Source: an uncultured Ruminococcus sp.
GTDB taxonomy: Bacteria; Bacillota; Clostridia; Oscillospirales; Ruminococcaceae
DNA length: 64,000 bases
Direction of reading: 5' to 3'
Assembly (NCBI GenBank): GCA_947627175.1
Contig: CANQVA010000006.1
Span: 62,001-126,000, forward strand
This document shows, in pieces, positions 14,185 to 61,840 of the stretch. The position numbers and the translations under genes are program-made. The notes under the pieces are model-generated. The model ran no database searches. It worked only from the letters and a program-made list of their open reading frames with translations, and had not been told where the DNA came from. The first letter of the stretch is position 1; every line of letters starts with the position of its first letter.

Positions 14185-14220
14185 GTTTTCAACATCTCAA
14201 CGTGCAAATGTTGAAAACTT
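14183..14220. repeat. Inverted repeat at the pepV stop
   Basis: A perfect 13-bp inverted repeat pairs 14183-14195 with 14208-14220 (core GTTTTCAACAT / ATGTTGAAAAC) around a 12-base loop. It includes the pepV stop codon and is followed by TGTGGAAA. It could act as a weak terminator, but the TTTTCAACA core is the same motif that recurs at 14837-15006. Confidence 0.7.
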
Positions 14221-14252
14221 TGTGGAAATTGTTTAAATACTGTTTAACGGCA

Positions 14253-14291
14253 TGAAAAAAGGGACTGTTAATTATATTTACAGTCCCTTTG
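14253..14291 (-). terminator. Terminator between pepV and the lipoprotein gene
   Basis: AAAGGGACTGT and ACAGTCCCTTT form an 11-bp stem with an 11-base loop. The T run is on the minus side, so it terminates the lipoprotein gene; it may also stop read-through from pepV. Confidence 0.8.
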
Positions 14292-14296
14292 AATAT

Positions 14297-14749
14297 TTAA
14301 TCTCTGTTATCGTTTTCACTGGAATTATCGGTGTTTTCCTCACCGTCAAGCCCGTCGGCTATATCTTCGGCAGCGTCGCCTGCTCCTTCGATAATTTCAT
14401 CGGCGGCATCTCCTACACCGTCAACTACATCTTCACCTGCATTTTCAACGCCGTCGATAGCGTCGTCTGTGTGGTCTTTAACGGAATTACTACTCCCGGT
14501 AGTATCAACAACACCGTCATCATCAGCATCATAGTGTTCATCATCATAGTAACGGTCATCACGTTTATCGTCCTCACGGCTGTCATCATCACGTCTTTTG
14601 TCGTCATCACGGTCTTTTTTTTCAGTGCTTTCATAATCAGTAGTTACCATATCACCGTCTGATGAATAGGAATTGTCGTTATTTCCGCACGAGGCAAAAG
14701 CAGTACACACAGTCAGTAATATGGAACTTATTGCTAAAAGCTTTTTCAT
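14297..14749 (-). CDS. Acidic repeat lipoprotein, function unknown
   Basis: This protein of about 150 residues starts at the ATG whose N-terminus is Met-Lys-Lys-Leu-Leu, with a hydrophobic signal and a lipobox ending Ala-Ser-Cys (Cys near residue 21). It is therefore expected on the outer face of the membrane. The mature part is extremely Asp-rich: first a charged Asp/Arg/Lys segment, then short repeats built on Gly-(Val/Ala)-Gly-Asp-Ala-Ala-(Asp/Glu) with Ile-(Ile/Ala). The frame is open to 14884, but upstream codons have no signal sequence and no good ribosome site. An overlapping + frame (14252-14662) is considered an artefact of the repeats. Function is unknown; a cation-binding surface protein is possible. 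Confidence 0.7.
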   Translation of the reverse strand: MKKLLAISSILLTVCTAFASCGNNDNSYSSDGDMVTTDYESTEKKDRDDDKRRDDDSREDDKRDDRYYDDEHYDADDDGVVDTTGSSNSVKDHTDDAIDGVENAGEDVVDGVGDAADEIIEGAGDAAEDIADGLDGEENTDNSSENDNRD

Positions 14750-14826
14750 ACAATCAAATCCTTTACATGAAATTATTGCGTCAGATTTTCCGCAACGTGT
14801 TTTTATTGTTTGCGTAAATTTCTTGT

Positions 14827-15006
14827 TTATCCACAAAGTTTTCAACTTTTTAGATGTGAAAAGTTGAAAACTCTGAATTATCATGTATTTTATTGTTGAT
14901 AAGATTGATGAAATTATTCACGTTTTTTCCCTTTTATCGGCTATTTTTTTAAAAAAAAGTTTTCAACACAGTTTTCAACACTATGTGGAAAACTATGTTG
15001 AAAACT
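14827..15006. other. Cluster of DnaA-box-like 9-mers
   Basis: The stretch contains TTATCCACA (14827-14835, perfect consensus) and near matches TTATCAACA (minus, 14894-14902) and TTATTCACG (14914-14922). It also holds TTTTCAACA (14961-14969 and 14972-14980), TTTTCCACA (minus, 14984-14992) and TTTTCAACA (minus, 14996-15004). The last four share the 11-mer AGTTTTC(A/C)ACA, arranged two forward then two reverse at 11 to 14-base steps next to a T/A-rich tract. The motif list is direct observation; binding by DnaA is inference from consensus knowledge. It lies upstream of the lipoprotein gene and downstream of carB. Confidence 0.5.
14837..14872. repeat. 14-bp perfect inverted repeat upstream of the lipoprotein gene
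   Basis: AGTTTTCAACTTTT (14837-14850) is repeated in inverse orientation at 14859-14872 with an 8-base loop. The left arm directly follows the consensus DnaA box at 14827. It may be an operator or a hairpin; its distance from the lipoprotein ATG (about 90 bases) suits a promoter-proximal site. Confidence 0.7.
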
Positions 15007-15072: not shown

Positions 15073-18000
15073 TTATTTTATGTCTGCATGGTGGGCTTGC
15101 AGTGATTTTACGCTGAAATGCTTGTTTTCTTTAATAGCCTTGATTCCCTCTGCACTCGCCTTTGCTGCTGCCATAGTTGTTATATAGGGAACACGGTGTT
15201 TTATAGCGGCTTTTCTTATATAACTGTCATCATGTGAACTTGTTTTTCCGGCGGGAGTGTTTATAACAAGCTGAATTTCGCCGTTTGCAATTTCGTCCGC
15301 AATGTTGGGGCGACCCTCATAAATTTTGAAGATTTTTTCGCAGGGAATGCCGGCTTCTTTAATCATCTTATAACTTTTTCCTGTAGCGATAATGCGAAAA
15401 CCGAGTTCATTAAATGATTTTGCAATTTCGATTAGTTCGGGTTTATCATGGTCACATACACTTAAAAGAACAGTTCCTTTTTCGGGCAATCTTGTCTGAG
15501 TAGATTCCTGTGCTTTATAATAAGCCTCTCCGAAAGAGTCGGATATACCGAGAACTTCCCCTGTTGAACGCATTTCAGGGCCTAAAACGGGGTCAACCTC
15601 CTGAAACATATTAAACGGGAATACAGCTTCCTTAACGCCGTAGTGGTTGATAGTTTTGTCTTTAAGCTGTGGAACGGGTGAAGGTTTTCCCGTAAGTTCG
15701 GAAGTAATGATTTCAGTCGCAATTTTAACCATGTTTATATTACATACTTTTGAAACAAGGGGTACAGTTCTTGATGCACGGGGATTTGCTTCAAGTACAT
15801 AAACAGTATCGTCTTCAATGGCATACTGCATATTCATAAGACCACGCACATTCATTTCAACAGCGATTTTCTTAGTATATTCTTTGATAGTATCAATTTG
15901 TTTCTGTGTGAGATTCTTTGCAGGAAGAATGCAGGCGGAGTCGCCCGAATGAACGCCGGCAAGTTCTATATGTTCCATAACAGCAGGAACAAAACAATTT
16001 GTACCGTCTGAAATAGCATCTGCCTCACATTCTGTAGCATGATGAAGAAAACGGTCAATAAGAATAGGTCTGTCAGGGGTTACGCCTACAGCGGCGGACA
16101 TATATATTCTCATCATTTCGTCATCGTGAACAATTTCCATTCCACGACCGCCGAGAACGTATGATGGACGAACCATAACAGGATAACCAATTTTATTAGC
16201 GATTTCAAGAGCCTCATCAACGTTTACAGCCATACCCGATTCAGGCATCGGAATGTTAAGTTTGTCCATCATTGCACGGAAATTGTCACGGTCTTCTGCG
16301 AGGTCAATAGTTTCGGGAGTTGTACCGAGAATGTTGACACCATATTTTTTAAGGTCATTTGCAAGATTAAGCGGAGTTTGTCCGCCGAACTGTGCAATAA
16401 CACCAAGTGGTTTTTCTTTTTCGTGAATGCTTAGAACATCTTCAAGAGTAAGGGGTTCAAAATAAAGTTTGTCGGAAGTGTCATAATCAGTTGAAACAGT
16501 TTCAGGGTTACAGTTTACTATAATTGATTCAAAACCGAGTTTTTTAAGTGCAAGAGCAGCATGAACGCAACAATAGTCAAATTCAATACCTTGACCTATT
16601 CTGTTAGGTCCTCCGCCGAGAATCATAACTTTCGGTTTGTCGCTTGACGTGCTGGGGTCTTTGTCAAGATGATATGTTGAATAGTAATATGCGGCATTCT
16701 GAGTACCGCTTACATGAACGCCCTCCCATGCCTCTTTAATTCCGAAATTGATACGTGCGTTTCTGATTTCTTCTTCTGTAACTTCAAGCAGTGAACTTAA
16801 ATATCTATCCGAAAAACCGTCAAGTTTAGCCTGTTTCAGAATGTCTTTTTCGGGAATACTTCCTTTTAATGTAAGGAGTTTTTCCTCTTCCTGAACAAGT
16901 TCAAGCATCTGTTCAAGAAACCAGTGTTTTATTTTTGTGAGTTCAAAAATTTCCTCAACAGTAGCACCCTTGCGGAGAGCTTCATATATAATAAACTGTC
17001 TTTCACTTGTCGGGAAACGCAATTGATTAAGAAGTTCTTCCTTTGACTGTTCGTGGAAATTCTTTGCAAAACCGAGACCATAACGACCTGTTTCAAGACT
17101 TCTGACGGCTTTCTGAAAAGCCTCTTTATATGTTTTGCCTATACTCATAACTTCGCCGACTGCTCTCATTTGCGTACCGAGTTTATCCTCTGCACCTTTG
17201 AATTTTTCAAAAGCCCATCTTGCAAACTTGATAACTACATAGTCACCGTCGGGTGTATATTTGTCAAGAGAGCCATATTTACCGCAGGGAATGTCTTTCA
17301 GTGTAAGACCGCAGGCAAGCATTGCAGAAACAAGAGCAATAGGGAAGCCTGTAGCTTTTGAGGCGAGAGCAGAAGAACGTGAAGTTCGTGGATTGATTTC
17401 AATAACGATAATACGCCCACTTTCAGGGTCACGTGCAAACTGACAATTACAACCGCCGATAACTTCAATTGATTCAACAATGCTGTATGCCTGTCTTTCA
17501 AGTTCTTTCTGAACGTCCTCCGGAATTGTCAGCATAGGAGCGGAACAGAAAGAATCGCCCGTATGAACGCCGATAGGGTCAATATTTTCAATAAAGCAAA
17601 CAGTTATGATATTGTTTTCAGAGTCACGGACTACTTCAAGTTCAAGTTCTTCCCAACCGCTGACGCATTCTTCAACAAGAACCTGTCCCACAAGTGAAGC
17701 CTGAAGTCCTCTTTCACATACTACTTTAAGTTCATTGACATTGTATACCATACCGCCGCCTGTACCGCCCATTGTGTAAGCAGGACGGAGAACAACGGGA
17801 TATTTGAGTTTTTCGGCAATTTTCACAGCTTCATCAACTGAATAGGCAACTTCACTCCGAGCCATTTCTATGCCGAGTTTGTCCATAGTGTGCTTAAATT
17901 CAATGCGGTCTTCTCCACGTTCAATTGCATCAACCTGAACGCCTATTACCTGAACGCCATATTTTTTGAGAACGCCGGCTTTGTCAAGTTCAGAACATAA

Positions 18001-61616: not shown

Positions 61617-61840
61617 TGACGAGGAAGGCTTTTTTCCGTCAGGTCGTTTTCAGAGAATCCGCTTTTTGCTGTGAGGCGGTAACGACAGGGAATAAAGCAC
61701 ACCGCCTCTGAGAGTGTTTAATAAACAACGCTGCTCCCGTTACAGAGCTAATAAGACATGGAATATTTTTCTGTGTGAATCAGGGTGGAATCACGGTTAC
61801 AGTCGTCCCTTGTGCCTTTTTCGGGTATGAGGGACTTTTT
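61617..61840 (+). promoter_or_regulatory. T-box leader, probably threonine-specific
   Basis: The T-box sequence AGGGTGGAATCACGG is at 61782-61796 (consensus AGGGTGGNACCGCG). Upstream, a Stem I-like region contains GAGGCGGT (61673-61680) paired with ACCGCCTC (61701-61708) and CAGAG/CTCTG arms. Downstream, CCCT at 61807-61810 can pair with AGGG of the T-box (antiterminator) or with AGGGAC at 61830-61835 (terminator). An ACC (Thr) at 61701-61703 is a candidate specifier but is not placed with certainty. Uncharged tRNA-Thr should allow read-through into the unknown gene and thrS. Confidence 0.85.
61803..61840 (+). terminator. T-box regulated terminator
   Basis: GTCCCT (61805-61810) plus GTGCC pairs with GGGTATG and AGGGAC (61830-61835), followed by TTTTT. 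This is the intrinsic terminator that competes with the antiterminator fold. Confidence 0.8.

Follow-up and report, generated by a model that had tools for sequence, protein, structure and literature searches.

Few model bacteria are known to have DnaA-box clusters away from oriC, and it is debated whether they act by titration of DnaA or by gene control. Bacillus subtilis has six such DnaA-box clusters (DBCs), and the joint removal of its oriC-proximal clusters (Okumura et al. 2012) leads to early initiation, according to reviews (PMC5295017, PMC13220808). DnaA of B. subtilis is also a transcription factor at several non-oriC sites (PMC4447404). In Escherichia coli, datA is likewise a group of DnaA boxes separate from oriC, and its distance from oriC is conserved; it is located at 94.6 min versus 84.6 min for oriC, needs IHF and stimulates DnaA-ATP hydrolysis (PMC4585315). 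In the E. coli DARS1 and DARS2 loci, both the arrangement of the DnaA boxes and their location are conserved (PMC4585315); these loci have a three-box core with a geometry of its own, as well as Fis and IHF sites in the case of DARS2, and are far from oriC.

The locus described here is located in a 64-kb stretch of DNA, referred to as the window (G000:C6:62001-126000), in a 2.6-Mb draft genome from the genus of Ruminococcus flavefaciens. By analogy, the closest known case appears to be that of the oriC-proximal clusters of B. subtilis, because both consist of DnaA boxes clustered outside oriC near the origin of a Bacillota chromosome. The cluster in the window has a box density far above the background outside oriC, it lies near oriC, and it uses the motif of the organism's own oriC. 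This motif identity, together with conservation across the genus, supports the B. subtilis-type DnaA-box cluster proposed in the first-pass annotation. Unlike the six DBCs, however, Ruminococcus has one dominant locus with genus-conserved spacing, which is tied to one lipoprotein gene. The locus lies about 15 kb from oriC. It is not equated with datA or DARS, whose host proteins differ. The Ruminococcus array can be traced in over 80 species. Its spacing is fixed, it has been amplified naturally to 12-20 boxes in some species and lost in others, and the gene beside it is always the same, so that comparative analyses and simple reporter experiments can be used to test titration against regulation. 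It also names the lipoprotein as a candidate for replication-coupled control.

The sequence to the left of the window contains rnpA, dnaA (TIGR00362) and dnaN, and a box-rich oriC, which confirms the earlier expectation that the window starts inside dnaN with oriC just outside it. When a strict DnaA box was defined as [TC]T[AT]TC[AC]ACA, 39 such boxes were found in oriC (C6:58.7-61.7 kb), most of them TTTTCAACA, TTTTCCACA and CTTTCAACA, and the boxes between dnaA and dnaN are of the TTTTC(A/C)ACA type that is also present in the cluster. The cumulative GC skew is lowest at dnaA-dnaN, at 61 kb of the contig, and a DnaA-trio, CTACTACTACTACTA, is located at 61646. The dnaA-dnaN intergenic region (L011:8548-9640, corresponding to C6:60548-61640) contains about 35 strict boxes, some of them in near-identical units 258 bp apart (61036, 61294), compared with 1-6 in most R. 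flavefaciens relatives. The rnpA-rpmH-dnaA-dnaN context and the trio place this oriC in the bipartite type described for Clostridioides difficile (PMC7561715). The cluster belongs to the same box family as the C. difficile origin, but it is without a trio, a dnaA context or a skew minimum. Domain IV of DnaA (L011:7054-8463) keeps the GGRDH motif, while the residues corresponding to E. coli P423, T435 and H439, which are among those listed as box contacts (PMC7561715), are A, S and Y across the genus. These changes would fit a box consensus that has moved away from TTATCCACA and towards the unusual TTTTCMACA. A literature search for DnaA in R. flavefaciens returned no paper.

The features of the cluster are collected in Table 1. 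The first-pass annotation had pointed to a group of boxes, one of them perfect, between 14827 and 15006, and this interval contains six strict and three weaker boxes. The extent of the cluster was underestimated, as the whole comprises eight strict boxes in 830 bp (14186-15004), with a pair on the pepV side and a further degenerate box. The array of two forward and two reverse boxes at 14960-15004 (the 2+2 array) was also described correctly in its orientations, while its start-to-start steps are exactly 12 bp rather than 11-14 bp.

Table 1. Coordinates of the DnaA boxes and neighboring features in the 64-kb window (rows named DnaA box are strict matches)
Feature	Position	Strand	Remarks
DnaA box TTTTCAACA	14186-14194	+	left arm of inverted pair directly 3' of the pepV stop codon
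DnaA box TTTTCAACA	14209-14217	-	right arm of inverted pair 3' of pepV
Small acidic lipoprotein gene, 150 aa, MKKLLAISS...ASCG	14297-14749	-	gene of the array
Leader hairpin, TTGCG/CGCAA in the window	14775-14796	-	arms covary across species
Degenerate box TTTTCCGCA	14786-14794	+	slot -41 of the genus array; overlaps an arm of the leader hairpin
Conserved TTTTTATTGTTTRC (GYAAACAATAAAAA on the gene strand)	14800-14813	-	proposed -10 region, from conservation, also in box-less lineages
DnaA box TTATCCACA, perfect	14827-14835	+	slot 0; overlaps conserved GGATAAAC block, the proposed -35 region
Weak box TTTTCAACT	14839-14847	+	slot +12; near-invariant in the genus
Weak box TTTTCAACT	14862-14870	-	inverted repeat of the 14839 box; window lineage only
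DnaA box TTATCAACA	14894-14902	-	
Weak box TTATTCACG	14914	+	
DnaA box TTTTCAACA	14960-14968	+	2+2 array, box 1
DnaA box TTTTCAACA	14972-14980	+	2+2 array, box 2
DnaA box TTTTCCACA	14984-14992	-	2+2 array, box 3
DnaA box TTTTCAACA	14996-15004	-	2+2 array, box 4
Stem-loop	15007-15038	-	directly after the 2+2 array; probable carB terminator; outside the box array

The cluster is real and is not a product of chance. Outside oriC and this region, the background density of strict boxes in 126 kb of the window's contig is 0.205 per kb, which gives a Poisson tail of 1.5e-11 for eight boxes in 830 bp (genome-wide, about 1e-7). When the same AT-rich intergenic DNA was simulated with a first-order Markov model, the number of boxes averaged 0.12 and reached 3 at most, versus the 8 observed. 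These two results rule out chance or AT-richness as the source of the cluster. The check proposed in the first-pass annotation, namely whether a similar motif density occurs across the AT-rich intergenic DNA of this genome, was run and found that it does not, and hence the cluster stands. The remainder of the genome was covered by pattern searches. Both tandem pairs (TTTTCMACA-N0..30-TTTTCMACA) and inverted pairs occurred at oriC and in this cluster; elsewhere, there was one isolated tandem pair, and two further places had an isolated inverted pair each. In this pair-pattern search, with boxes within 30 bp, the cluster at the lipoprotein gene was the sole multi-box cluster outside oriC. A similar scan of eight relatives returned clustered matches mainly at oriC and at the orthologous element, together with scattered single pairs.

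The comparison of relatives, many of which are metagenome-assembled genomes (MAGs) with broken contigs, showed that the cluster has a core common to the genus. The genus-wide array, which relatives have downstream of pepV, consists of slots at -41, 0, +12 (TTTTCAACT), +54, +63, +75 and +107 in forward orientation and at +119 and +142 in reverse orientation, numbered relative to TTATCCACA. All but one of 60 other elements have TTTTCCACA or CTTTCCACA in slot -41, and the box in slot 0 is identical in 59 of 60 elements. The two-box core (box 1-N32-box 2) was found in 87 of 125 genomes of the genus, and in 56 of the 68 good ones, while a control with the reversed pattern returned one match. The three-box geometry, searched in one genome each of 84,980 GTDB species, gave 58 matches, nearly all of them labelled Ruminococcus; the four labelled otherwise (Oscillospiraceae, Clostridiales, Bacillota and Alistipes MAGs) all carry the same lipoprotein gene. 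The MAG labelled Alistipes sp. (L132) has both the Ruminococcus element and the lipoprotein, and its label is probably wrong. In the distal part of the alignment the box columns are 0.86 identical versus 0.67 for other columns (p = 1e-8), a contrast that is less affected by common descent than the species counts, which are not independent and are inflated by it. The substitutions inside boxes fall mainly at positions 1, 3 and 6, the same positions that vary at oriC.

The window species keeps slots -41 (degenerate), 0 and +12 and has lost most of the distal slots. It has in addition two arrays in the flanking intergenic spaces, the inverted pair on the pepV side and the 2+2 palindrome next to the probable terminator of carB, which are absent from most of the genus. 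The division into three separate sub-clusters in the window lineage was missed previously. The pepV-side pair is found at the same place in G003, L099/L139 and several more distant species, and the 2+2 array likewise keeps its place in G003, L089/L100 and L139, with three of its four boxes in L099. In sister species the 2+2 array is located upstream of a small gene, which has a Pfam Imm6 match in G003; the window is without this gene, and the array persists. The Imm6-matching (immunity protein) gene of G003 lies between the array and carB (L044, about 15950-16520).

The core of the cluster is the predicted upstream regulatory region of the lipoprotein gene, which the first-pass annotation also missed. 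The lipoprotein has an acidic repeat, DAxDGxxDAGxDIIDG, and each of the 125 genus genomes searched has a match to it. It belongs to no Pfam family, and NCBIfam gave no match above the cut-off, with a sub-threshold match for one relative. An open reading frame of the MKK type, or a close variant, lies upstream of the element on the opposite strand in 87 of 88 element copies, the remaining copy being cut by the end of the locus. The distance from box -41 to the lipoprotein ATG is 30-80 bp and nearly always 37-46 bp. The element and the gene invert or move together, and the two orientations relative to dnaN account for 32 and 19 cases. Because the core moves with the lipoprotein gene, gene regulation by DnaA has to be considered beside titration.

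The boxes stand at a fixed distance from the start codon of the lipoprotein gene, while the promoter itself is predicted. The conserved blocks, read on the gene strand, are GGNATAAAC, which overlaps box 0, GTAAACAATAAA and the leader hairpin. The hairpin appears as a 5' leader element of the lipoprotein mRNA across the genus, including species without boxes, and five of its seven pairs show changes on both sides that keep pairing. Since these blocks persist in box-less species, the boxes seem to be superimposed on a promoter and leader that do not require them. The -35 and -10 assignments are weak ones, and a promoter consensus scan returned no more sites than were obtained in shuffles.

The motif identity, the uniqueness in the genome and the pattern of variation make DnaA binding the best-supported reading of the boxes. 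We propose, with a probability of roughly 0.6, that the cluster is an oriC-proximal DnaA-binding array, which serves as the regulatory region of the lipoprotein gene and also keeps DnaA from oriC. The constant distance to one gene favors control of that gene by DnaA, while the amplified arrays and the short distance to oriC favor a titration role as well. In the proposed mechanism DnaA would bind the array cooperatively, and the gene-proximal boxes -41 and 0 would cover the predicted promoter and leader, so that bound DnaA, most simply, would probably repress the gene. The expression of the lipoprotein would then follow free DnaA and the replication cycle. The boxes farther from the gene, and in the window species also the inverted pair and the 2+2 array, would add DnaA-binding capacity and, as they are duplicated soon after initiation, could soak up DnaA. 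Part of the conservation of box -41 is explained by the leader hairpin, which is present also without boxes, and this counts against the proposed reading, as do the weak promoter assignments, the species that keep the gene without boxes and the missing correlation with box numbers at dnaN. The cluster suggests that chromosome replication may be tied to a cell-envelope gene.

Pure titration, in which DnaA is bound but its sequestration near oriC is the sole selected function and the lipoprotein gene is a passenger, explains several of these data and is nevertheless rather unlikely. The B. subtilis precedent (PMC5295017, PMC13220808) speaks for it, as does the stable position of the array, 10-24 kb from dnaN in either orientation. 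Most elements are 15-18 kb from dnaN; the median distance is 16.7 kb in 51 species, 47 of which have the element within 25 kb, and in the window it is 14.8 kb. The weight of this argument is reduced by the gene order around the locus, which is conserved anyway, with pepV about 15 kb from dnaN throughout the genus. The box numbers are also consistent with titration. In 41 of 56 species the strict boxes upstream of the lipoprotein gene at least equal in number those in the 2.2 kb upstream of dnaN, a comparison which leaves out boxes upstream of dnaA and, being limited to strict boxes, underestimates the weak ones at oriC of other species. Furthermore, one lineage has amplified the array to 12-20 boxes, and the window lineage has boxes flanking the gene on both sides, including the convergent pepV side. 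On the other hand, nearly every species has the array beside the same gene, about 39 bp from the start codon, even where the two have moved or inverted, and titration alone needs no such tie. The array is also missing in a few species.

The losses were followed in eight species (G107, G132, G115, G112, G073, G113, G128 and G140), which retain the lipoprotein gene with no strict box upstream of it, so that the array is dispensable. A different DnaA specificity in these species was considered and rejected, because the recognition helix region is nearly identical and oriC has few boxes of the same type; G140 is an exception, with 34 boxes at oriC and 0 at the lipoprotein locus. The first few species had suggested that the number of boxes at this locus tracks that at oriC, which was not sustained in 56 species (Spearman -0.07, versus dnaN).

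The operator of another DNA-binding protein, with sites that merely resemble DnaA boxes, is an improbable explanation of the cluster. The near-perfect palindromic symmetry of the inverted pair and of the 2+2 array could suggest a dimer site in the window, but the genus-wide array lacks such symmetry, its boxes being mixed in orientation and spacing. Moreover, the variation inside the boxes is the same as that at oriC, and as the genome has no further multi-box place, a dedicated regulator would share its sites only with oriC. An even smaller probability is assigned to signals at the RNA level, in which the repeats would be transcript hairpins at mRNA 3' ends and in the leader instead of protein sites. 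The 2+2 array and the pepV pair do fold strongly as RNA, and the covarying leader hairpin overlaps box -41. However, separate stem-loops already exist for pepV and the lipoprotein gene (14258-14294) and for carB, the boxes of the array do not pair mutually in most species, and the box sequence is conserved beyond mere pairing.

A second or ancestral replication origin, with DnaA unwinding and helicase loading at the cluster, could draw on the AT-rich tract adjoining the boxes, on the 12-20 boxes of four species and on a 22-mer common to oriC of the window's clade, but it can be dismissed as extremely improbable, because the skew minimum is at dnaA-dnaN with no switch at the locus in the window genome and in G002, G019, G008, G114, G107 and G127 (the profile of a seventh relative, G043, is not clear-cut), and a DnaA-trio, present at oriC of G000 and G002, was found in none of 60 elements, nor in the window cluster or the large arrays, although for the latter its absence alone is weak evidence in G114, G127 and G138, where oriC likewise gave no match to the simple trio pattern. 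The secondary origin element suggested in the first-pass annotation was therefore abandoned, as the window genome has no skew inflection at 77 kb.

The region upstream of the lipoprotein gene contains 12-20 boxes in four species (G114, G127, G138 and G043), a number equal or nearly equal to that at their own oriC. Their large arrays contain the 22-mer CTAAACTAACAGGTTTTCAACA, which is found at oriC in the window's species and in G002. Within the genus this 22-mer occurs in nine genomes and, wherever mapped, it is located at oriC or at the lipoprotein array. Tentatively, the main dense cluster of consensus boxes in Ruminococcus may often be located 15 kb from dnaA-dnaN, at the lipoprotein gene, with box-rich units exchanged between this locus and oriC, and this gene could possibly encode a DnaA-controlled, replication-coupled envelope factor linking initiation to the cell surface. 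The 12-mer CTAAACTAACAG is found beside boxes at oriC of the window clade (C6:60567, 60775, 61045 and 61303) and at the lipoprotein array of other species (G114:C16:162779-163077; G127:C10:17162-17460; G043:C11:138000-138298; G138:C69:6294), a distribution that looks as if array units had been exchanged between oriC and the lipoprotein locus. Beyond the last box of the array, many species have a conserved ACTATATTGCT block (for example, L064 at about 1700-1720), which resembles TATTGCTAAAA at the start of the lipoprotein coding region.
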